The notes beneath the pieces were generated by a model that searched no databases, had not been told where the DNA came from, and saw nothing but the letters and a program-made list of their open reading frames with translations. A stretch of 43,181 nt of DNA. It comes from Thermoplasmatota archaeon. GTDB taxonomy: Archaea > Thermoplasmatota > Penumbrarchaeia > Penumbrarchaeales > Penumbrarchaeaceae. Each line of letters starts with the position of its first letter. Position 1 is the first letter of the stretch. Location of the stretch: positions 1-43,181 of the forward strand of contig JAFGLL010000022.1 of assembly GCA_016928095.1 (NCBI GenBank). The letters run 5' to 3'. Position numbers and translations under genes: made by a program. Shown in pieces: positions 7,803 to 27,949 of the stretch.

Positions 7803-7826
7803 AGGAATTCCGAAGGAGGTATGGAT

Positions 7827-10400
7827 ATGTCTAGGAGAGCATTGGCGGTAGCTGCCGCGATACTCATCATTGCGATCGTTATTTCCGGAGCACACCCTCA
7901 ACCTGAGGCCCTGGCGGGAGAGCCGACGAGACGGCTTCCATCGGCTCCCCGGAACTTCACCGGAGGATCGATGAGCACACAGATAAAGCTGACCTGGGAC
8001 GAACCACTTGACAACGGGGATTCGGCCCGGATCGGGTTCGCCCTTCTCAGGGGGCCGAACCAGGACGAAATGACCGTCATAAAATCGGATTTCGGTCCTT
8101 TCGATTTCAGCTATACGGACAAAGGTCTCAATAACGGACAGTTCTACTTCTACGGCATCAAGGCCATCAACAGTGAAGGGGTCGGTGAGATGAGCCCTGT
8201 CATCTCCGTCAAACCTGTCGGGAAGGCGACCCCCCCTGTGAACATAACTTATCAGTACTCGTCCAGAAGGATAGACATTCAATGGCTTCCGCCACTAAGT
8301 GATGGGGGTGATGCCATTATCGGGTACTATGTGCTCAGGGGTCCGAACCAGGACGTGAACCAGCTGGCTGTCGAACTGGGGAATGTCCTGGAATATACCG
8401 ATACGGGGGTTACCAACGGCGTGGCCTATTATTACAGGCTCCTGGCCTACACAGGTTACATGAACGGGAGCGCAAGCGATCACTTCCAGGTCACCCCAAG
8501 GGGGGTGCCTGGACCGCCGGGGGACCTGAACGTCACGCCCCTTGACAGGAAGGTCCACCTGAACTGGACCTACCCACCCGACGACGGTGGCGGGGCTGTT
8601 ATGGGTTACCATATCAAAAGGGGGCTCTCGGAAGATACCATGGAACTCTACAGGTACGTATCGAGCAGGACCGAATACCTCGATGACAATATCACCAACG
8701 GCCGTTATTATCATTATTCGGTGGCTGCAGTCAACCAGGAGGGTGTGGGCGAGTGGACGGATGTCATCAAGGTGTTCCCCATAGGCGTCCCGGACAGCCC
8801 GTTGAACCTGACCATTCAACCCGGGGACTCCAGTGCAATACTGTCCTGGAAGCCCCCCGTAGATGACGGCGGGTCCGGGCTGATCGGATACCGCATCTTC
8901 AGGACCACGAAGGGAGCCCCCATGGTCCAGATCGCCGATGTGGGACTTGAGCTCACATTCACGGACGGGAACCTCACGAATGGCGACATCTACTACTACC
9001 AGGTCAAGGCCTATAACGATCAGGGTGATGGTTATCCTTCCGAAACCATCGATGCAAAACCGGACCTCGCCCCCCACCCCCCCGAGAACTTCAGACTCAT
9101 CGAGATGGACAGTGCTATCAAGCTAATGTGGGCGCTTCCACCTCTCCTTCTGGACTATCCTGTACTGGAGTTCAGGCTCTATCGTGCGCTCTCGGGGGAA
9201 GATATGGAACTGTATGTGACGCTTTTACCCACCCAGTCCATCTACGAGGATCGGGACCTGGAGGTCGGCGTCCAGCACCTCTACATGCTCTCGGCCGTTT
9301 CAATGATAGGGGAGGGACAGCCAACCGCGATCATTTCCGGCATACCTTATACCGTTCCCTCCCTCGTACAGAACCTTCACCTGGATGCCGGGAACAAGGT
9401 AGTAACATTGAGATGGGACCCGCCCCTGCTCCCGGGAGGGAGGGATATCGTGAACTACAGGATATTCAGGGGCGAGAACATAGACACAATGTCCGTGATA
9501 GATGTGATCCTGGGAACCCTTACGATGTACAACGATACCAACGTCGTGAACGGTATATCCTATTACTACTCGATATTGGCCATAAACGAGAAGGCCGAGG
9601 GGGAGCTCCATTCACCGATTGAGGCCGAACCGCTTGGCCCACCGGACCCTCCCCGGAACCTTGTGGTCTCCGTGAAAGAAGGGGTCATCCTCCTTGAATG
9701 GGAGCAGCCCAGAGCGAACGGCGGCAGGACCATTACAGGCTACGTCATCCTGAGAGGGCCTTCTCAGCTCAACCTTACCCATTATGCAGACACCGGTTAC
9801 GTCCGGAACTTCACGGACAGCGACACCGAAAAAGGGGTGACCTACTACTATGCCGTGAAGGCCACGAACGAGATCGGGGAAGGGAAGCAGTCCAATTTCG
9901 CCACCGGAAAGATACCCATCGATGAGAAGGTCACAAAAGAGAGGGACAGTGCTCTCATGTACGTGATCGGCGGCATAGCCTTCCTGGTCCTGGTGATCGC
10001 ACTGATCGTCGTGGTGGTGATCATGTCCAGGAAGAAGAAGGACGATGAGAAGGAGGAGGCGCCAGTTCTCGAGGAGAGCGATAAGGAGCGAGAGCATCGC
10101 CTGGTCATGGAGAGGAGGCAGCAGATGAAGGAGTACACCGATGTTGCACTTACAACGGATGAGGCTCACGCCCTTGACGGTCGGAACCGGAAGTTGACCT
10201 ACGAGGAGCTTTACGGGTCCGGCACCACCACCGGGGAGGTCGAAAAGGGACCGGTTCCCGCGGGTTCGGACTCGGAACAGCCTGATTACCAGCCGCCGAC
10301 CGAGGGGGAGGTTCCTCGACCAGCCCCCGTGGATGAACCCGGGGAGGAGGCCAACCCTCCGGGTGGAGAGGGTCAGGAGTATATTCCTCCGAACGCTTGA
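7827..10400 (+). CDS. Membrane-anchored surface protein with seven fibronectin type III domains
   Basis: 857 residues: signal peptide (about 5-30, AAAILIIAIVISGA), seven FN3 domains of about 92-95 residues each (roughly 38-695), one membrane helix (about 710-735, IGGIAFLVLVIALIVVVVI), then Arg/Lys and an acidic, Pro/Gly-rich cytoplasmic tail of about 120 residues ending EYIPPNA. Each FN3 unit carries PxxPxNL..., WxPPxxDGG, GYxIxRG and NGxxYYYxVxAxN. FN3 arrays are extracellular spacers or carbohydrate/protein-binding modules. The GGAGGT at 7815-7820 abuts the ATG at 7821, so the ATG at 7827, six bases further on, is the likelier start. The next gene follows after 69 bases without an obvious promoter and may be co-transcribed. 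Ligand unknown. Confidence 0.9.
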   Translation: MSRRALAVAAAILIIAIVISGAHPQPEALAGEPTRRLPSAPRNFTGGSMSTQIKLTWDEPLDNGDSARIGFALLRGPNQDEMTVIKSDFGPFDFSYTDKGLNNGQFYFYGIKAINSEGVGEMSPVISVKPVGKATPPVNITYQYSSRRIDIQWLPPLSDGGDAIIGYYVLRGPNQDVNQLAVELGNVLEYTDTGVTNGVAYYYRLLAYTGYMNGSASDHFQVTPRGVPGPPGDLNVTPLDRKVHLNWTYPPDDGGGAVMGYHIKRGLSEDTMELYRYVSSRTEYLDDNITNGRYYHYSVAAVNQEGVGEWTDVIKVFPIGVPDSPLNLTIQPGDSSAILSWKPPVDDGGSGLIGYRIFRTTKGAPMVQIADVGLELTFTDGNLTNGDIYYYQVKAYNDQGDGYPSETIDAKPDLAPHPPENFRLIEMDSAIKLMWALPPLLLDYPVLEFRLYRALSGEDMELYVTLLPTQSIYEDRDLEVGVQHLYMLSAVSMIGEGQPTAIISGIPYTVPSLVQNLHLDAGNKVVTLRWDPPLLPGGRDIVNYRIFRGENIDTMSVIDVILGTLTMYNDTNVVNGISYYYSILAINEKAEGELHSPIEAEPLGPPDPPRNLVVSVKEGVILLEWEQPRANGGRTITGYVILRGPSQLNLTHYADTGYVRNFTDSDTEKGVTYYYAVKATNEIGEGKQSNFATGKIPIDEKVTKERDSALMYVIGGIAFLVLVIALIVVVVIMSRKKKDDEKEEAPVLEESDKEREHRLVMERRQQMKEYTDVALTTDEAHALDGRNRKLTYEELYGSGTTTGEVEKGPVPAGSDSEQPDYQPPTEGEVPRPAPVDEPGEEANPPGGEGQEYIPPNA

Positions 10401-10469: not shown

Positions 10470-13187
10470 ATGGGGAAAATGGAGATCAGGGAGCTCGTAA
10501 GATTGAAAAACGGTCTCGGAGGTCTCGAGCCACCGTTCAATGTCGGGATCCTTCTCGACAGGGAGAAGGCCGGAAGGGACCATCTTGCCGCTGTCTTCAC
10601 CCTGAAGGGTACGATCAAGGTCAAATGGAAGTTCATAAAAAAGGATACTGGCCGCATCTACGAGGGGGATAAAAATGACAACGCTGCCATGACCGCTCTT
10701 CTGGGGCAGGTCATCGAAGGCGAGAAAGACCGGAACCTCCTCAAAATGGACCCCGGGCAGATGATCGAGACGATCCTGCCAGCAGATCTCCGCAGGTCCG
10801 TCCTCAAATACATTTCCGGAGGGGGAACAAAGTTCGGTGTGAGAACGGGAGAGGCACCTGCCGGATGTCATGCCGTTGCATTCTCTCCGGCAGAGATAGG
10901 GCACATACATTTTTCCCCCAGCACCCTGACCCCCAAACAGGTATGGGCGATCGAAAGGGTGCTCTCGAAGTGCGACGCGGGAGGAGATGCCGATCTCCGG
11001 AGGATCGATATTGAAAGGAAGCCTCATTATTCACCCTACACCGCCGAGGCCATTTCCGAAGTGGACCGGCACATTCGACTCCTCGAGGACCTTCGGTCCT
11101 GCTTCCTGGAATGGGTCGAAGAGGAGGACGCAGTGACCGGAAAGGAGAGGAAGGTCCCGAAGCTCAAGGTCGAGGGGATCTCCACTGTCGAACTTCCACT
11201 GCAGTTGAGGGATGAGATGGACCGCATCTGCAGATGGGCGGTGTCCTATCTCGAGAATGGTTCATGGCCCACCAACGATGGTGAACTGAGGTTCACGGAC
11301 ATGAAGACCACCGGTCCCTTCGGCCTCGGTGGTCTGGACGTCCGCAGGAGGGGAAGGTTCGACCTGGAGCGGTACATTGAATACCTTTCAATGGACCTGA
11401 CGTCCGGCCCACGAGGCGATATGCCTTCGAACCTTGTCACCATGTTGCTCCTTCTGAACAGGATCGACTGGAGGGATGCTAGCGAGCTGGTCGTGAAGTA
11501 TCACATGGGTTCCGGGGCAAGGAAGTTCCACGAGGTGTTCCAGCCCCATGTCCTGGATGTAGCACGGGGACTGCCCGACCACGTTGAAGCATCGGACGAG
11601 GCGGGCAGAGAGGACCTGACCGGGCTCGAGACCTATACTATCGACCCGTCCGATGCGAGGGACTTTGACGATGCTGTCTCCATCTCCAAAGAGGGGGGTC
11701 GTACCAGGATATGGGTGCATATAGCGGACGTTTCCCATTATGTCAGGCCTGGCGACCTTGTGGATTCCGAGGCCAGGTACCGATCCACATCCGTGTACCT
11801 GCCGACCCGCGTCATACCTATGCTCCCGGCAAGGCTCTCCGAGGACCTCTGCTCGCTGAAAGAAGGGGTCAGGAGGCTTGCCCTTTCAACCCTGATGGTC
11901 TTCGATGAGGAGCTAAATCTTCTGGAATGGAGGCATGTGCCCTCGGTCATCAGGGTGGACGCGAACCTAGACTACGAGCAGGTGAACAGCTGGATAGAGG
12001 AAGGGAGGGAGCCCTTCAGATCGCTTTTTTGGGCAGCGGAAGCCCTGGAGAGGAAGGGGGACAGGTTGAAGATCGAAACCCCCGAAAAAAGGATCCGTTT
12101 CACAACAGGGTCCAGTATCGACATCGCTCTGAAAAGGCCCACCAGGGCGACCAGGTTGATCGAGGAGTTGATGGTGGCCACCAACGAATGCGCTGCAAGA
12201 TACCTGATGGAGCGCGGTGTCCCGACGCTTTTCAGGGTCCACCCGCTCCCGGACACCGTTACGGCAGACAAGTTCAACGCCGCATGCGAGGCCCTTGGTC
12301 TGGATGTGCGGATAGACCTCGATCGTGAAGATGTCAACAGAGAGTCCTGGTCAGGGGGAGAAGATACCATGTTGAACGCTCTTCTCTCCGGGGGGAAGAT
12401 CAACTTTGGTGCCACATCGAATCCCCTGAAGCAGGAGAAAGAAGAGGGCAGACCATTGTTCAAAGCCCCCTCGAAAGATGAGATGGACAGGGCTGTTACG
12501 GCCTACAACAGAGCCCTGGAAGAGATCGGAAGTATCGGGAAGGAGACCTTGAAGGATATGCTGAACATCAGGGTGCTCAGGACCCTTGGCCAGGCCTTCT
12601 ATTCCGTGGAAAACATCGGACATTTCGGCCTCAGGTCCCAGGGCTATCTCCACTTCACATCCCCCATCAGGAGATATCCGGACATACTCGTACACAGAGC
12701 GGTGAAGGCATGCCTCGAGGAGGAGGGGGCGGGCCCGTTCGTCGGCTGGCATGCCCCGGAGAGGGATGAACTGGAGGGTCAGATGGAGCATACCAATGAC
12801 ATGTCGGGATCCGCGGACGAATGGGAGCGGGACATGGTCTCCGTCGCTCTATCCACCAGGGCAAGGATGGAAACCGGGCTCTTCAAGGGACCGCATTCGG
12901 GTATCATTACATCATTGACGGGGGCATCCTGCTACGTTCTGCTGGACGATGGTGTCACCGAGGGACGGCTCTCTCTGCGGGACATGTCCCCGTACCCCCT
13001 GACGATCGACGAGAACGAGAGCATGATCATGGTGGACCTGAGGAGCGCATCGGACCCAAGGTTCCGCAGGGAGGTATCACAGGGACTTGATGAAGCCGTG
13101 TTCCTCAAGCTAGGAGACCGCATCACATGCAGGATCTCTGCCGTTTCCATAGCCTCCGGAAGGATCGATCTGAAGATATCTTCATAG
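10470..13187 (+). CDS. rnr: RNase R/RNase II-like 3'-5' exoribonuclease (RNB domain)
   Basis: 905 residues. The RNB catalytic core begins near residue 385, with the metal-binding signature IDPSDARDFDDA (D392, D395, D398, D400, D401), then WVHIADVSHYV and LPARLSEDLCSL, and later HFTSPIRRYPDILVHRAV, which contains the conserved RNA-gripping arginines. A C-terminal S1-like beta-barrel runs from about 805 to 905 and ends RIDLKISS. The family degrades RNA processively from the 3' end. The N-terminal ~380 residues do not show a clear bacterial cold-shock-domain pair and seem lineage-specific. Archaea generally use the exosome, so an RNB enzyme is a restricted trait known from some euryarchaea. The start is either 10470 or the ATG at 10479; neither ribosome site is decisive. 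Confidence 0.92.
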   Translation: MGKMEIRELVRLKNGLGGLEPPFNVGILLDREKAGRDHLAAVFTLKGTIKVKWKFIKKDTGRIYEGDKNDNAAMTALLGQVIEGEKDRNLLKMDPGQMIETILPADLRRSVLKYISGGGTKFGVRTGEAPAGCHAVAFSPAEIGHIHFSPSTLTPKQVWAIERVLSKCDAGGDADLRRIDIERKPHYSPYTAEAISEVDRHIRLLEDLRSCFLEWVEEEDAVTGKERKVPKLKVEGISTVELPLQLRDEMDRICRWAVSYLENGSWPTNDGELRFTDMKTTGPFGLGGLDVRRRGRFDLERYIEYLSMDLTSGPRGDMPSNLVTMLLLLNRIDWRDASELVVKYHMGSGARKFHEVFQPHVLDVARGLPDHVEASDEAGREDLTGLETYTIDPSDARDFDDAVSISKEGGRTRIWVHIADVSHYVRPGDLVDSEARYRSTSVYLPTRVIPMLPARLSEDLCSLKEGVRRLALSTLMVFDEELNLLEWRHVPSVIRVDANLDYEQVNSWIEEGREPFRSLFWAAEALERKGDRLKIETPEKRIRFTTGSSIDIALKRPTRATRLIEELMVATNECAARYLMERGVPTLFRVHPLPDTVTADKFNAACEALGLDVRIDLDREDVNRESWSGGEDTMLNALLSGGKINFGATSNPLKQEKEEGRPLFKAPSKDEMDRAVTAYNRALEEIGSIGKETLKDMLNIRVLRTLGQAFYSVENIGHFGLRSQGYLHFTSPIRRYPDILVHRAVKACLEEEGAGPFVGWHAPERDELEGQMEHTNDMSGSADEWERDMVSVALSTRARMETGLFKGPHSGIITSLTGASCYVLLDDGVTEGRLSLRDMSPYPLTIDENESMIMVDLRSASDPRFRREVSQGLDEAVFLKLGDRITCRISAVSIASGRIDLKISS

Positions 13188-13305: not shown

Positions 13306-16032
13306 ATGATACTTCCGAAAGGGACAGTGGAATTCCAGATGGCCGGCGGGGAGAATGTCATAGAGGATATTATCGGTCGGATCAAGAGCGGCAGCTTGAC
13401 CGGTTACGTACTCGTCCTTGGCAAGATAGAGAAGGGCGATGGCGAGCTGCATGACGTTACTGGACAGCTGGTCTTCAAGGACGGATCAGCTGTACTATGC
13501 GAGGCTGTGATAACGAACAGGTCAAAGAAGGGGGAGGAGGGTGTCTTCCCGATCCTGAAAGCGATGATGGTGCCCCAGAACACCATCGAGTTCAAGTCAA
13601 GGATAGATGTCGAGCCGCCCCTTGCATTCTTCAAGGAGTGTGCGGTCGACGATTCTGTTGTGGATATCAAAGGTTTCATGGAGAATATGAAGGCGGAGGA
13701 GGAGGATAAGCGAAAGATGATGGAGGAAAGGGAGAGACAGGAAGGGAGGAGAGCCGAGATATCGGATACGGTCAAGGATTGGCTCTCGCAGGGATACGTC
13801 ATCCCGAGCTTCCCCGCTGTCATGGACAGGGGGTTTCAGGAGATGGATGAATGGTTCTCGGACCTCAGCCTCAAGATCGAGCGCATCGACGGGCACATGA
13901 AATGGCTTTCCGATATAGATGAGGTAGAGGTCGAGGAGCAGAAAGAGGGGCTGATCGAGGTCATGAAGAGACCGGAGGAGATGCAGGCCCTCGAGTCTGC
14001 CGTAACCAGGTTCCAGGACTCTCTTCAACTCATCAACGAGAAACGCAGCGAGATACAAAAATGGGTGAACCTGTGGAAGGAGGAGGGTTACAACACCATT
14101 GCTATAGAGGAGACGCTGGAGAAGGACCTCACCACCGCCTGGAACGCCATGGCCGAGTTCATGGACAATATCCAGCATCTCAAGGACTGCAGAGAGGAGC
14201 TCGATGGGATCAAGGAAACCAACCACGCTAAGGGGTTCGGTTCCGAGATCCGCGAGATCGACCTCCTCCTCAACGACCCCGATGAGCTCGACAATATCAA
14301 GAGGCTGATCGAGGAACTAAAAAATATGATCCAGTATGAAATGAGCGAGAAGGAAGAGCTAATGAAAAGGGCGGGGGAGATGGAAGGCAGGGGATATGAT
14401 ATCAAGGTTCTGAAGATGGCCTCGGAGAGCAGGCTCAAGCCGTTGCAGGAGAAGTTCAACCTGGTGATGAACAACATCCAGAGGATCGAAGAGATCAGGG
14501 AAGAGCTCGATGGTCTCGACAGACGGGACATCTCCGATGACATAGACCGATTTTCCGGATCCACCGTTGACCCGATGAAGCTTGATGAGTACGAGGAAGA
14601 ACTGATAGCGATCATGGACAGGATCAAAGGGTTGGAAAAGGCTCGCAACGGGATCATGAAGGAGCTCAATGACCTGTCGGGCGAGGGTTACACCTTTGAA
14701 GACCTCGACGGCAAAGCTGACCTTTCCGTGGAAGGGCTGAGCGGGTTCAGGGACGATGTGGTCTCCAGGATATCCGAGCTCAGAGACCTCGGCGAGAAGC
14801 TCTCGGAGATGGACAGCAGGTGGTTGGAGGATGATATCAGAGAAGCTCAAGATGCCCTCCACGACCTTTCACGGACCGAATGGGTGAAGGAAAAGATAGG
14901 AAGGATACAGGAGAAGATAGATATCCGTGAGAGGAAGAGGGAGGAGGTCAGAGGCGACCTTTTATCCTGGAGCGAAGAGGGGTTCGCCGTTGGCAGACTT
15001 CAGGAGGTCATCGAAGAGGACCTCCCCCAGTTCTCCTCCGTCTGGGAAGATCTCGGTGAAAGGATCGGCGGGGCAAGGGGGCTCCTCGAAAAGCTCTCGA
15101 AGATGGATGTGAGCTTTTTCCGGGAAAAAGCGGAAGAGGTCAAAGCCGAATTGATGGACCCCTTCAGGCTTGAAGAGGCGGAGAGGTCCCTCTCGGACCT
15201 TAAGAAGGCCGTAGACAGGGATCGGGAACTCAGGAAAGGCCTCGGGAACCGGGTGACCGTTCTGAAGAAGGAAGGGTGGTCCATGGAGGGTCTCGATATC
15301 ATGAATGCCGAACCCGACAGGCTCGAGGAGGCGATCGCCGATCTCGAGGGACGGGTCCGGGACCTTTCAGGTGCACTGGGATCCATCGCATCCTGGGACG
15401 AGCTGGAGAAGAGGAACGTACCGGACCGCATGAAGGATATGACGGATCGTATGAAAGAACTGCAGAACCGCGATGCGTCCATGGAGATGTACAGCGAGCT
15501 TGAGGCACTGGTCCGCTCCAACAAGAAGAGGAGGGATAACATCCTCGGGACCATTACCGAATGGAAGGATGCTGGGTACATCATCAAGTCCGTGGCGGAG
15601 CTCCAGGAAGGGGATATTGAGGCCCTTTCCGCGTCCTTCGAGGAGCTAAGGGACAGGATAATGGAGCTCGAGAGGCTCCAGGATGAGTTCGACTCCCTCA
15701 ACAGGAAGCATTTCCCCAAGGAGGCCGAGGAGATAGAGTTCAAGCTCAACGACCCCGACCTTCTAGATGAGATAAAGACGGACATGGAGGACCTCGGATC
15801 GAAGATCAGAGCGGACCAGGAAGCTCGTGATGATTACCGCAACAGGATAGAGGACTACATGGACCAGGGGTTCATGGGTGCGGACAGACTGTCATCCTTC
15901 CTCGAGGAGGACCTTTCCATTGTCGATCTCGAGTTCAAGAACTTCGCCAAGGAAATAGACCAGTTTCGGAAGCTCAAGGAGAAGGTCGGTTTCATCTTCA
16001 GGGCTAAACAGGAGGACGGTTCCGAAGGATAG
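13306..16032 (+). CDS. Long coiled-coil protein with eight ~98-residue repeats and a DUF4388-like N-terminal domain
   Basis: 908 residues, strongly charged, with no signal peptide or membrane helix, so probably cytoplasmic. Residues 1-115 look globular: YVLVLGKIEKGDGEL, GQLVFKDGSAVLCEA and KKGEEGVFPILKAMM, ending IEFKSRI, resemble the DUF4388/PatA-like N-terminal fold (inference). After a charged linker, eight helical repeats follow, each marked by a Gly-aromatic pair: GY163, GY261, GY363, GY461, GF559, GW657, GY757, GF855. Spacings are about 98, 102, 98, 98, 98, 100 and 98 residues. Typical repeat elements are W-x-x-E/Q-G-Y/F, then 'LEEDL', then 'EI-x-L-NDPD-x-LDEI'. Such proteins act as scaffolds or filaments; no specific role can be assigned. 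It has its own promoter and converges on the next gene with only 8 bases between the stops. Confidence 0.88.
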   Translation: MILPKGTVEFQMAGGENVIEDIIGRIKSGSLTGYVLVLGKIEKGDGELHDVTGQLVFKDGSAVLCEAVITNRSKKGEEGVFPILKAMMVPQNTIEFKSRIDVEPPLAFFKECAVDDSVVDIKGFMENMKAEEEDKRKMMEERERQEGRRAEISDTVKDWLSQGYVIPSFPAVMDRGFQEMDEWFSDLSLKIERIDGHMKWLSDIDEVEVEEQKEGLIEVMKRPEEMQALESAVTRFQDSLQLINEKRSEIQKWVNLWKEEGYNTIAIEETLEKDLTTAWNAMAEFMDNIQHLKDCREELDGIKETNHAKGFGSEIREIDLLLNDPDELDNIKRLIEELKNMIQYEMSEKEELMKRAGEMEGRGYDIKVLKMASESRLKPLQEKFNLVMNNIQRIEEIREELDGLDRRDISDDIDRFSGSTVDPMKLDEYEEELIAIMDRIKGLEKARNGIMKELNDLSGEGYTFEDLDGKADLSVEGLSGFRDDVVSRISELRDLGEKLSEMDSRWLEDDIREAQDALHDLSRTEWVKEKIGRIQEKIDIRERKREEVRGDLLSWSEEGFAVGRLQEVIEEDLPQFSSVWEDLGERIGGARGLLEKLSKMDVSFFREKAEEVKAELMDPFRLEEAERSLSDLKKAVDRDRELRKGLGNRVTVLKKEGWSMEGLDIMNAEPDRLEEAIADLEGRVRDLSGALGSIASWDELEKRNVPDRMKDMTDRMKELQNRDASMEMYSELEALVRSNKKRRDNILGTITEWKDAGYIIKSVAELQEGDIEALSASFEELRDRIMELERLQDEFDSLNRKHFPKEAEEIEFKLNDPDLLDEIKTDMEDLGSKIRADQEARDDYRNRIEDYMDQGFMGADRLSSFLEEDLSIVDLEFKNFAKEIDQFRKLKEKVGFIFRAKQEDGSEG

Positions 16033-16040
16033 GATCGATC

Positions 16041-16664
16041 CTATTCCTCATTTCCGGATAATACAACAATGGCCGAACCTCCCCTGCATCTGATCGTGAA
16101 CTCTCCGTCAAGGATATCGTTGTGAATGCCCCTGGTGGACCCTGCAGGTATCCTTTCATCCTCAAGCGGCCATCTCAGACCTTTAACCGAGATGCGTGGG
16201 TCTCCCACCGGGATTATCGATACCATGCCGGTAGCCTGAAGCTTCAATTCGGACCCGTCCCTGAGGAGGTAAATGAGTTCAGGTCCGATGCGTATATCCA
16301 CGGTTATCCCTTCCGGGACAAGGAATGGGAGCAGGACCGTGGAGATGATATGGTCCATTCTGCCCCCCTTCCCCCCGATGATCGATATATGCGTGCTGTT
16401 CCTCCCCAGAGCCTCCCTCAACGCGATCTCTCCATCGGAGAGTTCCTTGTCCCGGGGATAGGTAAGCACTTCGACCCCCATCGCTCCTGCCGTCTTAAGG
16501 AGCCCTTCGGGAATGGAGTCCATGTCGCCCACAAGAACGTCCACATGTATACCAGCCTCATATGCAGCGACGTATCCCGAATCCGCACATATGACCAGAT
16601 CGTAGGTATCGGCCTCAGATGGAAAGGAGGAGCCGGAAAGGACCATCAGGGTCTTCTTACCCAT
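16041..16664 (-). CDS. Thiamine diphosphokinase-like protein
   Basis: 207 residues. Family motifs are clear: ICADSGYVAAYEAG, DVLVGDMDSIPEG (metal/ATP-binding acidic cluster), YPRDKELSDGEIALREAL (equivalent of KDKTDTELAL) and IIGGKGGRMDHIIS. These define the thiamine pyrophosphokinase fold, which transfers pyrophosphate from ATP to thiamine. The C-terminal part (SIIPVGDPRISVKGLRWPL ... RGIHNDI) matches the thiamine-binding beta-sandwich. The archaeal pterin diphosphokinase MptE was considered, but its motifs differ. No other thiamine gene is nearby, so salvage rather than synthesis context is suggested weakly. The ATG at 16664 sits about 26 bases from the TATA centre, implying a leaderless mRNA. 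Confidence 0.85.
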   Translation of the reverse strand: MGKKTLMVLSGSSFPSEADTYDLVICADSGYVAAYEAGIHVDVLVGDMDSIPEGLLKTAGAMGVEVLTYPRDKELSDGEIALREALGRNSTHISIIGGKGGRMDHIISTVLLPFLVPEGITVDIRIGPELIYLLRDGSELKLQATGMVSIIPVGDPRISVKGLRWPLEDERIPAGSTRGIHNDILDGEFTIRCRGGSAIVVLSGNEE

Positions 16665-16807: not shown

Positions 16808-19800
16808 TCACTCGTTCTTGTAGAGGTGCGGGAACTCTTCCTGGGGGAACTCGTCCTCCACCGGTTTAACCTTTCCCAGTACCATTATAAGAGCTATCAG
16901 CACCACGGCTATGAGGAGTATTACTATCAAGGCGATGACCACCACGAGCATGGTGTTGTCCTTCTTCTCCCCCTCCCGCGCGTCTGCCACGTTCGGGTCC
17001 CTGTGTCCCTGCAGGTATTCCTCGAGGTTGGTATCACCGTCATCGTCCGGGTCATCGTCAGGACCGAACTCGTTCATCCACCGGGGTGCTCCGTTGACGA
17101 TATCCGTTTTTCCCGCATTGTAGCCGTACTTGTATTCCCAGTTGTCCGGGAGCTGGTCACCGTCCGTGTCGGGATCGTTGGGGTCGGTACCCAACTGGTA
17201 CTCCAGAAGGTTCGTTAAAAGATCACGGTCATTATCCCACGATCCATCGTCGACGTCCTTGTTCAGACCGTTCTCGTCCTCCCACCAATCCAGTATACCA
17301 TCCCCGTCGCTGTCCATGTACGGGTCCTTCTCTATGATGGTCACGAAGAAATTGTCCGAGGCACTGTTCTCCCTTGGGTCCAGGACCGTCAAGGTGATGT
17401 TGTACAGGCCTGCCTCCTCGAAGAGGTAGGAGATGGTCTTACCGTACAGGACCTCTTCCATATCATCAAGGGTGATCGTCCACATGTATGTCTTTATCCC
17501 GATGTTATCCGTCGATCCCTGATCGGAGAACTGCAGAAGGGCACCCTTGTACGAGGATGCATCCTGGGGGGCTTTCACCTCGGGTGGCAGAAGGTCCACT
17601 GAACTGATCTCGAACACGGAGCTGGCACTGTTACCCATGGCATCCTTGATCGTCAGATGGAGTGTCAGATTGCCAAGCATTCCGGCAAGGTCGAATTCGA
17701 AGACCTCTTCATCTCCTGTCCTTTTCGTATGGTCCGGGAGAATGAGAAGCCACGAATAGGAAACCACACCGACATTGTCGGTGGACCCGGAGGCATCCGC
17801 CACCATTACCATATGGTTCCCTATCATTGTCGGTACCTCCACCGAGATCTGCGGATCGTCAGCATCCATGATTACTATCTCGCCGATGCAGGATACCGAG
17901 GGGGTCACACCATCGCTCACCTTGAGCTCGATGGCGTAGTTGCCCACATCCTGGAATGTATACGTGATCTCACTGCCTTCCAGGGATTCCCCGTTGATCT
18001 CCCACTTATACGTAAGGATGCCGATGTTATCCTCCGACCCCGTTGCTGTGAAGGTCACTTCCTCGTGCTGGAATGCAGAGGAGGGTGCGTTCATGACCGC
18101 AATGGGTTGCTCGTCGTCAACGACCTCGATGTCAACCTGCTCCGACATTACCATGTTCATGGAGGTATCGTACACCGTGAAGTAGTAGGAGAATGTGCCC
18201 ACCACCTCGTTTTGCATGATGACCTCCATGTAATAGGTCCTGTCCGTCAGCATCATCGTATGGGTCTCCCACTCGCCTCCCGGGTATCTGAGGGATACAT
18301 CCACACGTCCCACGCCGATATTGTCCGTTGCATTCATCCTCAGCATCAACGGGTCTCCGGTCAACGCATCTGTATCCGAGAGATCGGCCTCCACCATCGG
18401 AAGGTCGTTGTCCTCCACCGACACCATGATGATCTCCGTGGTCATCCGGTTCCCCTCCTGGTCCCATGCTTCGATCCAGAAGAACAGGGGAGCAAGGGCA
18501 TGGGGGACCGATAAGGTGGATGAATAGGTGTTTCCGGACGATGTTAGGTCCGTGAATATCGGTGTGCCGGTTCCGAACGAATAGTAAAGCCTGGTGTCCG
18601 TGACACCGATATCGTCCGTGATGGTGGCGGATATGGAGTATTCATCTCCCGTATAGGCAGTATCCGCCGCGGTCACACCGGATATCTCCGGAGGTGTGGT
18701 GTCCAGTATCTCGATGACCGAGGAGCAGACACGGATGTTCCCTGCCGGCGTGTCGGTCGCGGTGAACCTGACGGACATCGTTCCGGAGGTGAGCGGAAGG
18801 TCGACATGGTAGTAGTACACACCTGGAGAGATGGAGGACATGGAAACCTGTCTGACCGTTGGATCGAAGGAGAACCAGTACTCCAGTTTGAGCGTGTTCA
18901 GCTCAATGTTGTCGATCACCACCGCCTTGATCGGGAAGTCCTTTTCACCGGCCTTGGCAACCTTCCTTGTCATATCGACCACATCGGGAAGGTCGTTGTC
19001 GCTTACGTCAATGGTCTTGTCCTTGCTTGTAATGGTATTGCCGGAGGTGTCCACCACTGTGAAGTTGTAATACAGAGGTGCCAAAGAGTGAGCGATCTTT
19101 ACTATGCTGTAGTAATTCCCGGAGCCGGCATCCGACATCGGTATGTCGTTGTAGACCCGTTCAGTGCCGTACCTCATACTTAAAAGAACGGTCCCGATGG
19201 CTATATTGTCATCGGTGTTCATGGTGAAGTTGAGGGGGTCCCCGGTGGTGCCCGAAGCGGGGGTGGTATCGCTGTTGATCACCGGGTAATCATTGTCGAT
19301 GACGGGTATGTAGCCCCCCTCCTCAAGGGTGTTGTCGTTGTGATCCGTCCCGGTCACTACGAGGGTGATCGGGTCAAGGCTGTGTGGGACGGTGATCGCG
19401 GTGCTGGTCCAGTACTCGGAATCAGAATCGTATGTCAGGTCCAGGGACCGGGAGTTCATCCAGTCATCGTCGTAACAATATTCCACCGAGGCCTCGTATA
19501 TGGCAGGTCCGTCGATGTTATCATCGAACATCACTTCGAAGGAGAACTGATCGCCTGTGGTGGCCCCCATCTTCAGATCGACCAAGTTCGGAGGGTCGTT
19601 ATCGTCCACCGGGACCGTGACAGTACTGCTCGGACCGGAGGCCCACCAGTTGCCCTGCCGGTCCCTGAAGTCGTAGAAGTAGTAAAGGGGTCCTGCAGTA
19701 TTGTATGAAACCGTGATCGAGGTGTATGCTGCCTGGTCGGTCCCGAATCCGGACCCGTAGAGGGTCAGGGACCTCTGGGAGTGGGAGCCGGCACCATACC

Positions 19801-22723
19801 AGTATTCAACATAAGCGTACCCTATCCCGATGTTGTCGTTCAGAGTGAGGGAGAACCAGAAGGTGTCACCTGTCGATGCCGAGGTTTCCGAGTCGTCGCT
19901 CACAAAGGTCGGGGGGACGTTATCGTAGATCGCCTGATAATAGGTCGATGAGATGCCGATGTTGTTCGAGTAATCCGCTGCCCGGAAATAGAAATAGATG
20001 CCGTCCCAGTAGGTGCTCACCGTTCCCACATAATAGAACGTGTTACTACTGCCCGCCTGGGTCATTGGTACTGAAGTGTAGGACGGGGTGCGGGAGTCCC
20101 TGAAGTAAAGGGTCACCGTGGTCGGGTCCAAGGCAACGTTGTCCTTCACATCGACGGTCAGGTTCACGGACCCACCGGTCAGCGGCGGGTAAGGGTTCGA
20201 TCCGACGTTGGAGAACGTAGGACCGGTAGCGTCTATCGGGACCAGGCTCTTCGTCGTCGTGTTGGCCCAGTTCCCGTGATAATCGCCTGCGGACACGAAC
20301 CAGTAGAAGGTATCCACCGAATCCGGGATGATCACCGACCCTTTGCCGTTCAGGATCGACATGGTGGTGTTCGCATGCGGTCTGGTCCCGGACCAGGATT
20401 CAATGGTCAGATACATCACGCCCACATTATCGCTCGATGTTGCCGTGACGGTAAATGGTTGACCGGTATATCCTACCATATTCGTCGTCGTGTCCGTCAC
20501 CGTAGGCGGTTTACGATCGTCGAATTTCGTTCCCAGGCGTGCCACGAACACATCGGTGGATGTGTACGTCGTGTCGTATGCACCGGATATCGTTGGGAAG
20601 TCGGATGAGGAGGTGTAACCCGCAACATACATGGTATTGGTCTTATCGATCTCGATACCGGCATATGGATAATCACTGCTGGAACCGCCCAGGTAGGTCG
20701 AGAACGAAAGAGAAGCGCCATCAGCGCTAAGGTTGGTCATCACCACATCGGTACTTCCGCCGAAGTCCTGGACATAATCGGATGTCAATGGATAACCTGA
20801 GGACGAGGTATAACCGGCCACGAAGGCGTTCCCTTTGGAATTGACCTTGATGTTGTGGTAATACGTGTAATCCGAAGAGTCTGTGCCCAGGAACGTGCTG
20901 TATGTCAATCCGTTACCGTTGCTGTTGAGCTTGGTGACGAAGATCTCGTAGTTATTGTAGGTCGTATCGTATGCTCCCGACGTTACGGGGTAGTTGGAGG
21001 ATGCGGTATATCCCGAGAGATAGACGTTCCCGCTGGTGTCAACATCGACACCGCGGGCGTAGTCCGTGCTGGAACCGCCAACATATGTGGCCCATACGGC
21101 CGCTCCCGTGCTCGAGCGAAGTTTTACCGCTCCAACATCGTAACCCCCGGCATTGGAGGCCTGGTAGGCCCCGGACGTTGTGGGGAAATCCGTTGCACCG
21201 GTATAGAGGATCGGATATCCGTTCCCGTTGTCGTCGGAGGCGATGTCGTAGCAGTAGTTGGAGGAGGTGCTGTTACCTCCAACGAAGGTGGCCCAGACCA
21301 GGGAGGAACCGGAGGGATTGAACTTGGCGGCATATCCCATGTAATTGGTCCTGCTGGTCAGGAAGGCTCCGGATGTCACCGGGAACTCGCCATATGTGGG
21401 GTTTACGGAGGCACTGTAATAACTGTTCCCGCTGACATACACATACCCATCACTATCAACATCGATGCCGTAACCATATTCGTAGTAGGCCCCTCCCAGG
21501 AAGGTCGAGAATATGAGCGACGACCCGTCCTGGGATAACTTCGTAACGAACGCATCATAGTAGCTTGTCGAATAGGCGGTATTGATGCTGGACTGGAAAG
21601 CTCCTTTTGTGCTCGGATAGTTGCCGCTGGACGAATAGTAAGTGTATCCCGTGATGTAGGCGTAACCGTTCTTGTCGGCGGTTCCCCCGTAGCAGTAATC
21701 GGAATTGTAACCCCCGATGAATGTGGAATAATAGATATCCTTCCCCGAATAATGGAACTTGGTGATGAAGGCATCGTAGCTGGTGCTCGACCTGTACTGC
21801 TGGTATGCACCCGGTGTTGTCGGGAACTCGCCGGATGAGGAATAGGTGGTATATCCCATCGCATAGGCGTTTAAATTACCATCCACCCCGATGCCCCATG
21901 CATAATCGGAGCCGTAGGAACCGAGATATGTCCCGTAGTAGAAGGGGTCTATCACAACCGTCCTCCCGTGGTCATATTCATCGATATCGAATGAATAGGT
22001 ATCCCCATCCACCATTATGAAGGATGCATCGATCTTCTCTGTCGGGTCGTCCAGATAGAACACGTCGAGGTCCCGGTCGACCATCGTGGCCTCCCCGTCC
22101 ACATCTATAACGAGCGATCTGTCCACCACATCCATGCCCTTCTGCCCCTTCATGGTCATTTTGATGTCCGAAGGGTCGGCTCCTGGTTTGAGTATGATAT
22201 CATACTTCAGGTCGTTGTCCGAATACCGGTAAGTGATATCTATGCAGTCCCATATCTCAGGATACGATATCTGAAGGTAATTGGGAACATGTGTGACCCA
22301 GTTCGGTTGGTCCCCGATCAGATAATTGTATTTCGCCCCGATCTCGGACCCTCCGGTAGGCCACGGGGTATTCGAGTCCTCGAAGGTCAACTCCAGGATG
22401 TGACCCGTGAAACGCGGGTCGCCGTTCTCATCATCCTCGACCTCCTTGATGATGTTGAAATATACCCCCTCCTTGTTGAGGCCGATATACCCCATACCTG
22501 TCTTTCCAACATAATCAAGACCGCTATGCCACTGTCCGTTGTTCTTGGTGAAATGGTTGGACATGGAATATGTCGGCTCCATTGTGGGGGCCGCATCATC
22601 CTGAGCGATATCCTCCGACATATCGAATTCCGTTCCCTCGGAACGACCTGAATAGAAAAGGCCGAACAAAGCTGAGGTAATCATTAGCGCAGCCATAAAG
22701 ATCGAAAGTTTCCCCTTATTCAT
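16808..22723 (-). CDS. Giant membrane-anchored surface protein: SBBP beta-propeller, Ig-like, PKD and calcium-binding repeats
   Basis: 1971 residues. After a signal peptide (MNKGKLSIFMAALMI...) comes a domain starting FTKNNGQWHSGL, typical of proteins with SBBP repeats. Seven propeller-type repeats follow, marked YGTYLGSYGSDYAWG, YSTFIGGYNSDYCYG, FSTFLGG, WATFVGGN, WATYVGGSSTDY, YSTFLGTDSSDY and FSTYLGGSSSDY. Then come eight Ig-like domains, each opening with a D-N-D-x-P or similar hinge, and three PKD-like domains (for example TYKWEINGESLEG). Next are TSP3/dockerin-like acidic repeats (DSDGDGILDWWEDENG, DPNDPDTDGDQLPDNWEY, DDDPDDDGDTNLEEY), a membrane helix and a short tail ending PHLYKNE. 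The frame is open to 22852, but GTGGTGATC lies just before the ATG at 22723, followed by a true signal peptide. An adhesion or polymer-binding stalk is the likely role; target unknown. Confidence 0.9.
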   Translation of the reverse strand: MNKGKLSIFMAALMITSALFGLFYSGRSEGTEFDMSEDIAQDDAAPTMEPTYSMSNHFTKNNGQWHSGLDYVGKTGMGYIGLNKEGVYFNIIKEVEDDENGDPRFTGHILELTFEDSNTPWPTGGSEIGAKYNYLIGDQPNWVTHVPNYLQISYPEIWDCIDITYRYSDNDLKYDIILKPGADPSDIKMTMKGQKGMDVVDRSLVIDVDGEATMVDRDLDVFYLDDPTEKIDASFIMVDGDTYSFDIDEYDHGRTVVIDPFYYGTYLGSYGSDYAWGIGVDGNLNAYAMGYTTYSSSGEFPTTPGAYQQYRSSTSYDAFITKFHYSGKDIYYSTFIGGYNSDYCYGGTADKNGYAYITGYTYYSSSGNYPSTKGAFQSSINTAYSTSYYDAFVTKLSQDGSSLIFSTFLGGAYYEYGYGIDVDSDGYVYVSGNSYYSASVNPTYGEFPVTSGAFLTSRTNYMGYAAKFNPSGSSLVWATFVGGNSTSSNYCYDIASDDNGNGYPILYTGATDFPTTSGAYQASNAGGYDVGAVKLRSSTGAAVWATYVGGSSTDYARGVDVDTSGNVYLSGYTASSNYPVTSGAYDTTYNNYEIFVTKLNSNGNGLTYSTFLGTDSSDYTYYHNIKVNSKGNAFVAGYTSSSGYPLTSDYVQDFGGSTDVVMTNLSADGASLSFSTYLGGSSSDYPYAGIEIDKTNTMYVAGYTSSSDFPTISGAYDTTYTSTDVFVARLGTKFDDRKPPTVTDTTTNMVGYTGQPFTVTATSSDNVGVMYLTIESWSGTRPHANTTMSILNGKGSVIIPDSVDTFYWFVSAGDYHGNWANTTTKSLVPIDATGPTFSNVGSNPYPPLTGGSVNLTVDVKDNVALDPTTVTLYFRDSRTPSYTSVPMTQAGSSNTFYYVGTVSTYWDGIYFYFRAADYSNNIGISSTYYQAIYDNVPPTFVSDDSETSASTGDTFWFSLTLNDNIGIGYAYVEYWYGAGSHSQRSLTLYGSGFGTDQAAYTSITVSYNTAGPLYYFYDFRDRQGNWWASGPSSTVTVPVDDNDPPNLVDLKMGATTGDQFSFEVMFDDNIDGPAIYEASVEYCYDDDWMNSRSLDLTYDSDSEYWTSTAITVPHSLDPITLVVTGTDHNDNTLEEGGYIPVIDNDYPVINSDTTPASGTTGDPLNFTMNTDDNIAIGTVLLSMRYGTERVYNDIPMSDAGSGNYYSIVKIAHSLAPLYYNFTVVDTSGNTITSKDKTIDVSDNDLPDVVDMTRKVAKAGEKDFPIKAVVIDNIELNTLKLEYWFSFDPTVRQVSMSSISPGVYYYHVDLPLTSGTMSVRFTATDTPAGNIRVCSSVIEILDTTPPEISGVTAADTAYTGDEYSISATITDDIGVTDTRLYYSFGTGTPIFTDLTSSGNTYSSTLSVPHALAPLFFWIEAWDQEGNRMTTEIIMVSVEDNDLPMVEADLSDTDALTGDPLMLRMNATDNIGVGRVDVSLRYPGGEWETHTMMLTDRTYYMEVIMQNEVVGTFSYYFTVYDTSMNMVMSEQVDIEVVDDEQPIAVMNAPSSAFQHEEVTFTATGSEDNIGILTYKWEINGESLEGSEITYTFQDVGNYAIELKVSDGVTPSVSCIGEIVIMDADDPQISVEVPTMIGNHMVMVADASGSTDNVGVVSYSWLLILPDHTKRTGDEEVFEFDLAGMLGNLTLHLTIKDAMGNSASSVFEISSVDLLPPEVKAPQDASSYKGALLQFSDQGSTDNIGIKTYMWTITLDDMEEVLYGKTISYLFEEAGLYNITLTVLDPRENSASDNFFVTIIEKDPYMDSDGDGILDWWEDENGLNKDVDDGSWDNDRDLLTNLLEYQLGTDPNDPDTDGDQLPDNWEYKYGYNAGKTDIVNGAPRWMNEFGPDDDPDDDGDTNLEEYLQGHRDPNVADAREGEKKDNTMLVVVIALIVILLIAVVLIALIMVLGKVKPVEDEFPQEEFPHLYKNE

Positions 22724-22797
22724 ACTGATCACCACTTGATCTATGCGGTAGACCCATACCTCTACAGGAATTAAGCCCAGTTTAATCAGGTTCGTGT

Positions 22798-22806
22798 TAT
22801 ATAAAA
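22798..22806 (-). promoter_or_regulatory. TATA box of the giant surface-protein gene
   Basis: GTTTTATATAAC on the minus strand predicts a start near 22776 and a leader of about 50 bases before the ATG at 22723. It lies inside the longer open frame, supporting the shorter protein. Confidence 0.6.
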
Positions 22807-22912
22807 CTTTGTCGTGAGAGCGCTGGCTCGATGGTAAAGATATAAATAACACCAGGCAGGGGACCGATTCGTCGTACAGGTGGTGCCCCCTTCTTTCAGG
22901 TGTCCTTCCCGC

Positions 22913-25900
22913 TCAGGGACCGGGAGGGAACGGAGGCACAGGAGCTGTGGGAAGGTCGGCAGGGTGGGGGCCCTGCCCCGGCAACCCTTGCGGGGTTCCC
23001 GTTCGGGGTGGTAGAGGCGCTCCGGGTGCAGGAGGCGGGGTCTGCTGGGCCTGTTTTCTTCTTGCAAGGACAAGGACCACCCCCATTATGATGATGAGTA
23101 TGATCACGGCCGATCCGATCCCGATCACCAGCAACAGCAGCCCCGTATCAAGACCACTGTCCTCTCCAGGGTCCTCGGGGGTCGTTCCAGGTTCCTTCAC
23201 GATCAGGGTGAAGGACTGGTTCACAACATTGCCGGCCGAATCCTTGACGGACACCACGACCTCATAGGTCCCCGTTTCGGTGAACGATGTTTCAAAGACA
23301 CCGCTCGGCGTCCATTCCGGGGTCCCCGACCCGTAATAATCGATGCTGTAGGACTGGATGCCGCTGTCGTCGGAGGAGCCAGTGAGATCGACCTTCAGTT
23401 CATCATCCAGATAGAGCTCGCCATTCACCGGTCCCTTTACATCCAGATATATCAGGGGCATGGTGGAATCCTTCTTGACCTGGACCGTCCTGGGTTCCAT
23501 CTGGTTACCCCCCAGGTCCTCGGCCCAGTATACAAAGGTGTTCATCCCGTCGGGTATCAGCACTGCGTTCTTGTACAAACCCGGGGTCTCGGACCCCCAC
23601 CGATAGTATATCTTCATGGCGGATGACCTGTCGTCCTCCCCCTTGGGTTCGAGGACGATGGAGGCCCTTGACCCCTGGAACCAACCGTTCGTCATCTCTT
23701 CGGTGAACACGTGCTCGACGAAAGGGACCCGCTTGTCGACCTTGACCAGGAAGAACAGCATATAGGCCTGATTGCCTGCCTTGTCCTTTCCCCTCACGCG
23801 GATCTCGTTCTCCCCTTCGGGTATCTCGACCGGGGAACTGTACGGTACGGGCGCACCGTCGTTTATGGTGTAATTGATCTCCATGGACTGTTCGCTGCCC
23901 TGCACGTTGAGGATGGGGGGTATGTTCAACCATCTTGAGGAGTTCTCGTCGGTGTATTCGAAACCGTCGAACCATGCCGTTATGTTCGGCTGAGTTGTGT
24001 CCACCTGGAACCTGAGCCTGACCTCTTCCGCGTCATTGCCCGCTCTGTCGGTGCAGGTGATCCTGAGCGTGTTCTCCCCGTCAGGAATGCCGACCGGAGC
24101 ATGGTAGGGCTGCATATCGCCGCTCCCCAGGGCATAATAGATAGCAACTGCATCGTAGGAAGTGAGAGTGACCTGAGGGGTCGTTGTATACCATCCGTTC
24201 TCCCCGTTGGGTTCCAGGGGATAGATGGTATAGTTCAGGGTAGGTGCCATGGTATCGACCTTGAACGACCTTGAGCGGACGATCTCCTCGTTGCCGGCCT
24301 GGTCCACGGCCTTCCAGTAGAGAACGTTCTCTCCCTCGGGAGCAAGGAATGCCCCCTCATATCGTTTAAAATCCCCGTTACCCCATTTATGGAACAACAG
24401 GCTTTCGGGGTGGGAGGTGGTCAATGTGATCAATGGTGCCGAAGTATACCAGTTCTCTTCCGGGAGGTTGGGCTGGATATCGATGGCCGAAGAAGGGATC
24501 CCGGTATCCACTTTGAACTCCAGAATATGCTTCTCCTCGATGTTCTGGTGCCTGTCATACGACCAGTAAGTGAGCGTGTGAACTCCCTCTGGCATGTAGA
24601 ACGGCTCCGTGTAATCGGATCCTGCAGCGGTATCTATCTGATATTTGATGAAGGACCCGGACTCGGTGTTGAGGGTCACCTTTGGACTTGTTATATACCA
24701 TTCGTCAACGCCGTCTGGGGTCCTCGGGGATGTGATGATGGTGGAAAGCGGAGGGTCGAGATCGAGTACGTCCAGGTCGTACGCCACATTGGAAAGTCCC
24801 GTGGATGAGAGAATGAGCTGAAATGAACTGTACTGCTGGCCCCAACCCTGGAATTCATGGGAGATCGACCTGGACCCGCCGAAGTCAAGGAAGGTCACGT
24901 TCCTGTTGGACGAGGTCTCAGGATAGAACGCGACAATGGGGTTACCGGAGCTGAAGGTCATCTTCAGCCGGAAGGTATCGACCCCGCTCGGTGGCGAGCT
25001 GAACCTCAGGGTTGTTATGGAAAAACCGTTGATGTCCCGGTTCGCCTGCACCGGTATCCCGGAGTGGGATGCTGTTATCGAGCTCTTCAAGGTCCCGTAA
25101 TCGTAACTCTGCGTGGGGTATACGTACTCACCGTTCCCCACATCGGCGGAGTTCAATCGGGTCGCCACCATCCATTTCTGGAAGGAATCCGTGAAATCGT
25201 CCTGGGATCCGATGGCGGAAAGGGCCTGACTGACACCGGTCGTCCCGTGGTTGGTGTTCCGTACAAGCGCCCTCGTGTAGTTCTTTCCTCCATACTGATG
25301 GCTCATGTAGATCTGATACATGAACGATATGCCATAATATGCGGTGGTGCCGTCCTGGTAAAATGTCTGGTCGGTGATAACCAGGCCGTAGTATGGCCTG
25401 TATTCAAGATATGCGTAGACATGTCCGGCCGTGGCCGACGATATCCCGTAAACCAGGTATGCTGCGTAATCAGCACACCCCTCATCCACCCAGAGGTTCT
25501 CGTACTGGTCGTACTGCCTGTGGACATAATGCTGGAACTCGTGGGCGGTTATCACACCTGCCCAGCTTAGATCGGCCCTGTCCACATGGAACTCGTCGGT
25601 CCCGGGAGAGTAATATCCGCCGACCCCACTGGACCCGTCTATCTGATGGACGTAGAAAGTGGCCTGGTTCACCCTGTCCATCGGGTCGAACCAGTCCTTC
25701 ACTCGAGGATAGGAGAAGTTGACGAAATCGGCCACATACCGGTCAAGTAGCTGTTCCTCGTTCGAAGAGAGGGTACCACCTCCGCCGGAGGAGACATCGA
25801 CATAGACCGTCAGGATGTCGTCAGCGTAATATTCATCCCAGGTGGCCCTTGTCGGAGCGGAGGATGCGGTGGATGTTCCTTGTTGTGCGGGAGGATATAC

Positions 25901-26149
25901 CGCTCCTTCGGGCATGGGTTCGGGAGTCTGTATGAACGGGGATCCCGGATAGGGTAATTGTGGTCTGTATCCCAACTCTTCAAGTCCGCTGAAATCAAGG
26001 TCGGACAGGGTCTTCACGCTCTCCTCCGCTCTTATGGACCCCCCGTCGGAGGTCCATGGGACCCCGAGAAGGGATGCTGCCACAAGCAGCAAGAGGATAG
26101 CGGAGGGGGCGAGTGAGCGTCCCGGTCCTTGTGAACTCTTTGGGTGCAT
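22913..26149 (-). CDS. Membrane-anchored HEXXH metallopeptidase with Ig-like/OmpL47-like repeats and proline-rich tail
   Basis: 1078 residues. Signal peptide (about 12-35), a Pro-rich propeptide-like segment, then a peptidase domain (about 100-380) with H203-E-F-Q-H207 and E223 in LWVDEGCADYAAY. This is the HEXXH...E zinc site of gluzincin-type enzymes, with the third ligand 16 residues after the second His. From about 480 come five beta-sandwich repeats of about 85 residues with 'GWYTTTPQVTL ... IPDGENTLRI ... DRAGN' (OmpL47-like), then a PKD-like domain. A membrane helix (about 1000-1030, LLLLVIGIGSAVIILIIIMG) is followed by an Arg/Lys stop and a cytoplasmic tail rich in Pro and Gly ending PPFPPGP. 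It probably cleaves extracellular proteins at the cell surface; substrate unknown. The gene has a GGGAG site about 9 bases before the ATG. Confidence 0.88.
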   Translation of the reverse strand: MHPKSSQGPGRSLAPSAILLLLVAASLLGVPWTSDGGSIRAEESVKTLSDLDFSGLEELGYRPQLPYPGSPFIQTPEPMPEGAVYPPAQQGTSTASSAPTRATWDEYYADDILTVYVDVSSGGGGTLSSNEEQLLDRYVADFVNFSYPRVKDWFDPMDRVNQATFYVHQIDGSSGVGGYYSPGTDEFHVDRADLSWAGVITAHEFQHYVHRQYDQYENLWVDEGCADYAAYLVYGISSATAGHVYAYLEYRPYYGLVITDQTFYQDGTTAYYGISFMYQIYMSHQYGGKNYTRALVRNTNHGTTGVSQALSAIGSQDDFTDSFQKWMVATRLNSADVGNGEYVYPTQSYDYGTLKSSITASHSGIPVQANRDINGFSITTLRFSSPPSGVDTFRLKMTFSSGNPIVAFYPETSSNRNVTFLDFGGSRSISHEFQGWGQQYSSFQLILSSTGLSNVAYDLDVLDLDPPLSTIITSPRTPDGVDEWYITSPKVTLNTESGSFIKYQIDTAAGSDYTEPFYMPEGVHTLTYWSYDRHQNIEEKHILEFKVDTGIPSSAIDIQPNLPEENWYTSAPLITLTTSHPESLLFHKWGNGDFKRYEGAFLAPEGENVLYWKAVDQAGNEEIVRSRSFKVDTMAPTLNYTIYPLEPNGENGWYTTTPQVTLTSYDAVAIYYALGSGDMQPYHAPVGIPDGENTLRITCTDRAGNDAEEVRLRFQVDTTQPNITAWFDGFEYTDENSSRWLNIPPILNVQGSEQSMEINYTINDGAPVPYSSPVEIPEGENEIRVRGKDKAGNQAYMLFFLVKVDKRVPFVEHVFTEEMTNGWFQGSRASIVLEPKGEDDRSSAMKIYYRWGSETPGLYKNAVLIPDGMNTFVYWAEDLGGNQMEPRTVQVKKDSTMPLIYLDVKGPVNGELYLDDELKVDLTGSSDDSGIQSYSIDYYGSGTPEWTPSGVFETSFTETGTYEVVVSVKDSAGNVVNQSFTLIVKEPGTTPEDPGEDSGLDTGLLLLVIGIGSAVIILIIIMGVVLVLARRKQAQQTPPPAPGAPLPPRTGTPQGLPGQGPHPADLPTAPVPPFPPGP

Positions 26150-27870: not shown

Positions 27871-27949
27871 TCCAAACCTCCATCGAATACTGTCCATTGA
27901 TGCCATTACCCTTTAATCATTGTTGCGGCTCCCGGGGGTGGAACCGTTC

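Follow-up and report, generated by a model that had tools for sequence, protein, structure and literature searches.

Eukaryotes are known to build spectrin-like rods, as are bacteria in the case of EzrA. In spectrin and EzrA, triple-helix repeats of about 100 residues follow one another in tandem, and each junction is a long continuous helix that closes one unit as its third helix and opens the following unit as its first (PMC4243239). EzrA (PF06160) is a cytoplasmic rod of this type (PMC4243239). A three-helix-bundle rod has also been solved for EbhA, a staphylococcal cell-wall protein (2dgj). The other system that bears on the locus described here is bacterial DnaA (PF00308, TIGR00362), whose AAA+ module carries the Walker A and B, sensor I, box VII and sensor II motifs and is joined to the DnaA-box-binding domain IV (PF08299).

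The window, by which we mean the whole stretch of DNA that was analysed, covers positions 1 to 43,181 (43,181 nucleotides, forward strand) of contig JAFGLL010000022.1 of a Thermoplasmatota archaeon (assembly GCA_016928095.1, a Candidatus Thermoplasmatota MAG). We refer to the host genome as G000, to its congener as G001, to the window protein under study as P0001 and to related loci by L-numbers. The P0001 gene (13306..16032, + strand) encodes a repeat protein of 908 amino acids that, by profile and model, consists of an N-terminal domain, eight 98-residue three-helix units and a short tail, and lacks an AAA+ head. Upstream on the same strand lies an RNB-domain exoribonuclease of the RNase R/II type (10470..13187, +), and the convergent downstream neighbour is a thiamin pyrophosphokinase, TPK (16041..16664, −); both adjoin the gene in G001 and G005 as well. 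These housekeeping genes give no pointer to function. Much of the window is occupied by large PKD, Ig-like, CARDB, SBBP or fn3 proteins, a type usual in secreted or surface proteins (16808-22852, 22913-26149, 26317-27906 and 38628-41798, all −; 7821-10400, +). A protein ending in a prokaryotic JAB (deubiquitinase-like) domain and a nearby Cdc48-type AAA ATPase are encoded on one strand (35102-36766, + and 31409-33616, +). P0001 had no match in the PDB (by sequence), in Pfam, or among phages or plasmids. A single-sequence search of the genome contigs returned no relatives, and an alignment-based search gave named ones. Orthologs occur at every level from the genus through the family and order to the class.

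The periodicity of P0001 is exact. Its Gly-aromatic anchors stand at residues 163, 261, 363, 461, 559, 657, 757 and 855, and the spacings of 98, 102, 98, 98, 98, 100 and 98 residues reported in the first-pass annotation were reproduced without change. In a self-similarity analysis of residues 141-908, offset 98 ranked first (z=9.65, 200 shuffles), followed by offsets 7 (3.9) and 49 (3.6). The same annotation had counted eight repeats, and a unit HMM built solely from the units of three orthologs of other genera (L008, L011 and L012) recovered exactly eight in P0001, the last of them partial, at residues 144-238, 244-340, 347-435, 443-538, 541-636, 639-734, 739-834 and 837-894. The total of 375 bits compares with maxima of 61 for 100 block-shuffled and 7 for 100 plainly shuffled sequences. 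All units lie on the + strand. Unit 1 (13735..14019, anchor GY at 163) scored 51.8 bits with this other-genus profile. Unit 2 (14035..14325, 72.7 bits), with its GY anchor at 261, KWVNLWKEEGYNT, is the best conserved and contains the four-residue loop insertion that produces the 102 step. Units 3 (14344..14610, GY at 363, 60.1 bits), 4 (14632..14919, GY at 461, 40.5 bits) and 5 (14926..15213, GF at 559, 67.8 bits) follow. The 100 step arises in unit 6 (15220..15507, GW at 657, 29.3 bits) from a three-residue loop insertion minus one residue. Unit 7 (15520..15807, GY at 757) reached 73.9 bits, and unit 8 (15814..15987, GF at 855), which comprises the long and second helices only, reached 16.7 bits over model positions 3-59.

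The spacings are nearly unchanged in six of the seven full-length orthologs (98, 102, 98/101, 98, 98, 100-101, 97-98), and in the class-level relative L012 each of the seven is exactly 98. When units were compared between proteins, those of P0001 paired with the same-numbered unit in every case within the family, mostly so in the order-level relative and only loosely in L012. The array is old, since its units match by number across same-family orthologs. The host genome also encodes two paralogous repeat proteins with TPR-like segments, G000:C46:31617-33416 (L002) and G000:C91 (L004). Units of the C46 paralogue, which has CxxCxGxG-type zinc clusters, are about 99-108 residues apart, and the 98 step is kept in neither.

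An AlphaFold2 model of two units, made from 25 aligned repeat pairs, was confident (pLDDT 92.3, pTM 0.73) and had a spectrin-like topology. The model runs from a 37-residue helix through the Gly-aromatic loop to a helix of about 6 residues, a helix of 26-29 residues, a loop, a 10-residue helix and an Asp-Pro turn, which leads into the next 37-residue helix; the 37-residue helix is common to neighbouring units. The model of the whole chain (10 sequences; pLDDT 82.9, pTM 0.33) is usable for the local fold, and the overall shape of the rod is not established by it. Insertions and deletions among seven orthologs (minimum identity about 23-25%) are distributed in keeping with this layout. Within the repeats, every event of more than one residue falls at offsets 40-42 from the anchor, inside the loop that precedes the 10-residue helix. 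Events of a single residue occur at offsets 2, 6, 7 and 56, and there are none in the shared 37-residue helix. The step may be fixed at 98 because the shared helix has to keep its length and phase, as neighbouring units would otherwise rotate against each other.

The step had originally been read as a coiled-coil register of 14 heptads, with the 102 spacing as a four-residue stutter. Register and stutter are both unsupported. In the model each unit falls into three helices, and 17-19 of its residues are non-helical, which would break any heptad frame within the 98-residue step; neither the model nor the loop indels leave room for an uninterrupted helix across the repeat. The four extra residues of the 102 step sit at offset 42, at the end of helix 2 and its loop, thus between helices, and are missing in L012; the 100 step reflects three residues inserted at offset 40 in the same loop, less one residue near the Gly-aromatic loop. 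What stands of the earlier reading is that eight helical units follow a small N-terminal alpha/beta domain in fixed phase, and a rod or scaffold as the class of protein was a reasonable call.

The model and profile thus present the layout of spectrin and EzrA, tandem three-helix units of about 100 residues with a continuous shared helix, and as far as the model tells P0001 would work like a spectrin-type rod without being a member of either family. It shares the repeat length class and linker helix with the eukaryotic spectrin repeat (PF00435), yet only one of 19 units matched that family (E 0.0032) and P0001 itself did not. EzrA repeats have no meaningful mutual sequence similarity, whereas those of P0001 do; EzrA has no AAA+ domain, zinc ribbon or N-domain; and the short 6- and 10-residue helices of the P0001 units set the two apart. 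PF06160 was not found in P0001, and L012 scored 17.3 bits, under the cut-off of 39.6. The unit profile gave only weak matches in the PDB, mostly to designed or generic helical chains. A Foldseek search with the two-unit model found no significant solved relative, with EzrA and spectrin absent among the matches listed; the best by probability was EbhA 2dgj (probability 0.66, E 0.95, TM 0.38, 11% identity).

The array is preceded by an alpha/beta domain (13306..13665, +) with the predicted order beta-alpha-beta-beta-beta-alpha-beta, and by a first long helix, residues 121-161 (13666..13788, +), which in the model runs into unit 1. The domain had been called DUF4388-like, a label that fell away when no DUF4388 match was obtained in 37 genomes. 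DUF2226 is the nearest named family, and a weak one: three of 12 N-domains matched it (best E 7e-4), and none of the 37 genomes did so at E 0.001. The resemblance to archaeal DUF2226 and to DUF4388 (PATAN type) lies in the order of secondary-structure elements, presumably the same in DUF4388 as in P0001, while the sequence match remains under genome-level significance. The N-domain is found once in each genome, where it opens this protein in every ortholog whose sequence extends that far, and related domains precede plain coiled coils in G016, G027 and G035. An adaptor for long helical scaffolds would fit this position and these relatives. Pairs of N-domain and coiled-coil proteins are encoded about 2-6 kb apart on the same strand at L135 (G027:C11) and L136 (G035:C66), and two such proteins lie on separate contigs in G016.

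Beyond unit 8, P0001 has only a low-confidence tail (15988..16029, +), whereas the orthologs run on into a linker, a Bac_DnaA AAA+ domain and a double zinc ribbon. This order, with a charged linker and with the zinc ribbons where the sequence is complete, holds for every ortholog outside the genus that reaches its C-terminus. Those that are complete there measure about 1250-1400 residues, of which head and zinc ribbons make up the C-terminal 350-500 (L007, L008, L010, L011 and L012); L009 ends inside the AAA+ domain at a contig end. Bac_DnaA scores were 140 bits in L007 and 233 in L012 (cut-off 23). Identity of the AAA+ modules to E. coli DnaA spans 28-46%. All seven motif residues checked are kept in most copies, with identities of 40-46%. 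They are closer to DnaA than to Hda or DnaI: L012 scored 366.6 bits with TIGR00362 versus 102 with Hda, and a PDB search with the module gave 238 bits for a DnaA chain versus 41 for Hda. Modules of this strength occurred in only nine of 146 Thermoplasmatota genomes and, among the controls, in bacteria only.

The motif set of bacterial DnaA (Walker A/B, sensor I, box VII, sensor II) recurs in the orthologs and in a standalone protein of the host genome (G000:C29). Unlike bacterial DnaA, the ortholog module lacks domain IV and is fused to the N-domain, rod and zinc ribbons, and P0001 itself has no module. Domain IV was found in none of 37 genomes (controls positive 10/14) and Orc1/Cdc6 in all ten genomes tested, which together indicate that no DnaA-box initiator exists here; the idea that the DnaA-type proteins replace the initiator was dropped because of the Orc1/Cdc6 genes. 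Bacterial contamination as the origin of the modules was rejected as well, as they are fused to Thermoplasmatota repeats, present in related MAGs and devoid of domain IV. L012 lies above the NCBIfam TIGR00362 DnaA equivalog cut-off (366.6 versus 343.9 bits) despite missing domain IV, so automatic annotation could label it a replication initiator. We found no description in the literature, of which our coverage is incomplete, of a DnaA AAA+ motor on such a rod.

Other arrangements of the module occur elsewhere in the phylum. In farther families, an N-domain, two units and a DnaA-type AAA+ are combined (L042, L044 and L045 in G017, G028 and G036), and L042 also has a C-terminal DUF835 domain (Pfam). 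In the 534-residue L035 (G030:C218), the module follows an apparent signal sequence, an fn3-like extracellular domain and a transmembrane-like segment, and the protein is probably a membrane-anchored DnaA module. L061 (G011:C6, 519 aa) is a third G011 module, located behind Cys-rich zinc-binding segments, and its box VII and sensor II residues are altered or missing.

The proteins of G000 and G001 stop directly after unit 8, and the head is gone. The loss is clean, as the same RNB and TPK genes bracket the gene in both genomes and in the head-bearing G005 (RNB-rod-TPK in each; those of G001 and G005 were recognised by sequence matching). An assembly artefact was rejected, given two independent MAGs that end at the same place beside the same TPK gene. 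The sole Bac_DnaA match in G000 is the separate C29 (L041), a 432-aa open frame on a different contig from the rod gene. Because C29 clusters with standalone orthologs from other genera, a head that had simply moved elsewhere in G000 was rejected as an explanation. Such standalone DnaA-type ATPases without domain IV, about 430-470 aa long, are found at G000:C29 (L041), L040, L043, L038, L039, L036, L037 and L056-L058. Their motifs are intact in G000, G001, G002 and G005, and G004 has a standalone ATPase and no rod ortholog.

The fused and standalone copies tend to decay alternately. The standalone copy is intact in G005, where the fused copy has sensor I Asp->Glu, box VII first Arg->Gln and sensor II Arg->Ser, and in G008, where the fused copy has Walker B second Asp->Asn and sensor II Arg->Met. 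The reverse is seen in G003 and G007, with an intact fused copy and a standalone one carrying Walker B second Asp->Asn and box VII first Arg->Thr; in G006 the standalone copy shows this decay too. G011 holds two intact DnaA-type copies. G000 and G001 have lost the fused head and keep an intact standalone copy. Catalytic residues are thus often lost from one of the two in lineages with a pair of DnaA-type ATPases. The simplest reading of the alternation is that the fused and standalone proteins belong to a single machine in which one ATPase has to stay competent; with only about four independent lineages behind it, this is a lead, not proof.

The anatomy of the family is well supported, and from it we infer a function. 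In the family at large, the rod would be the stalk of a DnaA-derived ATPase, an AAA+ without the DnaA-box-binding domain IV and with zinc ribbons. The N-domain would dock on a partner, the extended rod would define the distance and the geometry, and the head, taken to oligomerise with ATP like DnaA, would assemble or remodel a complex at the far end. At about 5 nm per unit, as in spectrins, the rod of P0001 might be some 35-40 nm long. In the genus of the window, the headless rod would probably be the scaffold for the separate intact ATPase G000:C29, acting in trans; the location of the two genes on different contigs and the rod-less G004 count against it. We give about an even chance to the reading in which P0001 is the spectrin-like scaffold of an ATPase system derived from DnaA and is probably served in trans.

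Alternatively, P0001 may, once its head was lost, have turned into a scaffold that stands on its own and has no link to DnaA-type ATPases, for example a ruler of the cytoskeleton or envelope. The C46 and C91 proteins of G000, with the same repeat, TPR and zinc-cluster ends and no AAA+, speak for this reading, as do the related N-domains before plain coiled coils in G016, G027 and G035. Against it, sequence, unit number and spacing in P0001 are as in the head-bearing orthologs (41% identity to L007 end to end), and nothing indicates a shift once the head was lost; we regard this alternative as somewhat unlikely.

The family could also act in replication, in the manner of Hda or DnaC, by regulating initiation or the loading of the helicase; the rod would then link the membrane or nucleoid to the origin. 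In favour of this, the AAA+ module resembles DnaA more than Hda or DnaI, and the zinc ribbons could bind nucleic acid. However, Orc1/Cdc6 is present in 10 of 10 genomes, domain IV is absent in 37, and no replication genes were recognised beside either the rod gene or the standalone ATPase gene, which leaves such a role unlikely.

The headless rod could also be a decaying remnant on its way to a pseudogene, its job having passed to the standalone ATPase. Heads decay repeatedly in the family, G004 is without the gene, and the G002 copy has in-frame stops, though a draft contig ends there. This is a poor candidate, as the frames of 908 (G000) and 913 (G001) codons are open, all eight units of P0001 are intact, and the gene is under purifying selection (dN 0.23 and dS 1.10 against L005); dN/dS is about 0.21 against G001, which argues against a pseudogene. 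A conventional long coiled coil of the SMC/Rad50/filament type, with a 14-heptad register, is the least credible of all: the offset-7 signal (z 3.9) and weak SMC/Rad50 model matches point that way, but those matches are of a kind usual for charged helices and far under the cut-offs (34.6 of 700 and 31.9 of 567 bits; 23.8-34.6 bits against 300-700 across SMC, Rad50 and ASRP), the model splits the units into separate helices at the Gly-aromatic, h2-h3 and Asp-Pro turns, and the insertions fall in the loop.

If P0001 is the rod of a DnaA-derived ATPase system, the history of the family can be sketched tentatively, as a scenario that we hold possible rather than probable. A group of Thermoplasmatota would have acquired a bacterial DnaA AAA+, lost its DNA-binding domain and placed the engine on a spectrin-like rod that also bore zinc ribbons and, at its N-terminus, a docking domain; two DnaA-type ATPases would then have specialised into catalytic and non-catalytic partners, and the rod of the window's genus would have become a headless subunit acting in trans with the ATPase that is left. 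The outcome would be a scaffold or filament driven by DnaA whose role lies outside origin recognition. For annotation, a fused rod-DnaA protein that scores above the NCBIfam DnaA equivalog cut-off is a trap. A length-locked archaeal array whose repeats are still detectable in sequence would offer a tractable case of rod evolution through unit duplication, and a near-canonical bacterial DnaA module without its origin-binding domain, present beside Orc1/Cdc6, raises the question of what job the DnaA engine does when it is not an initiator.
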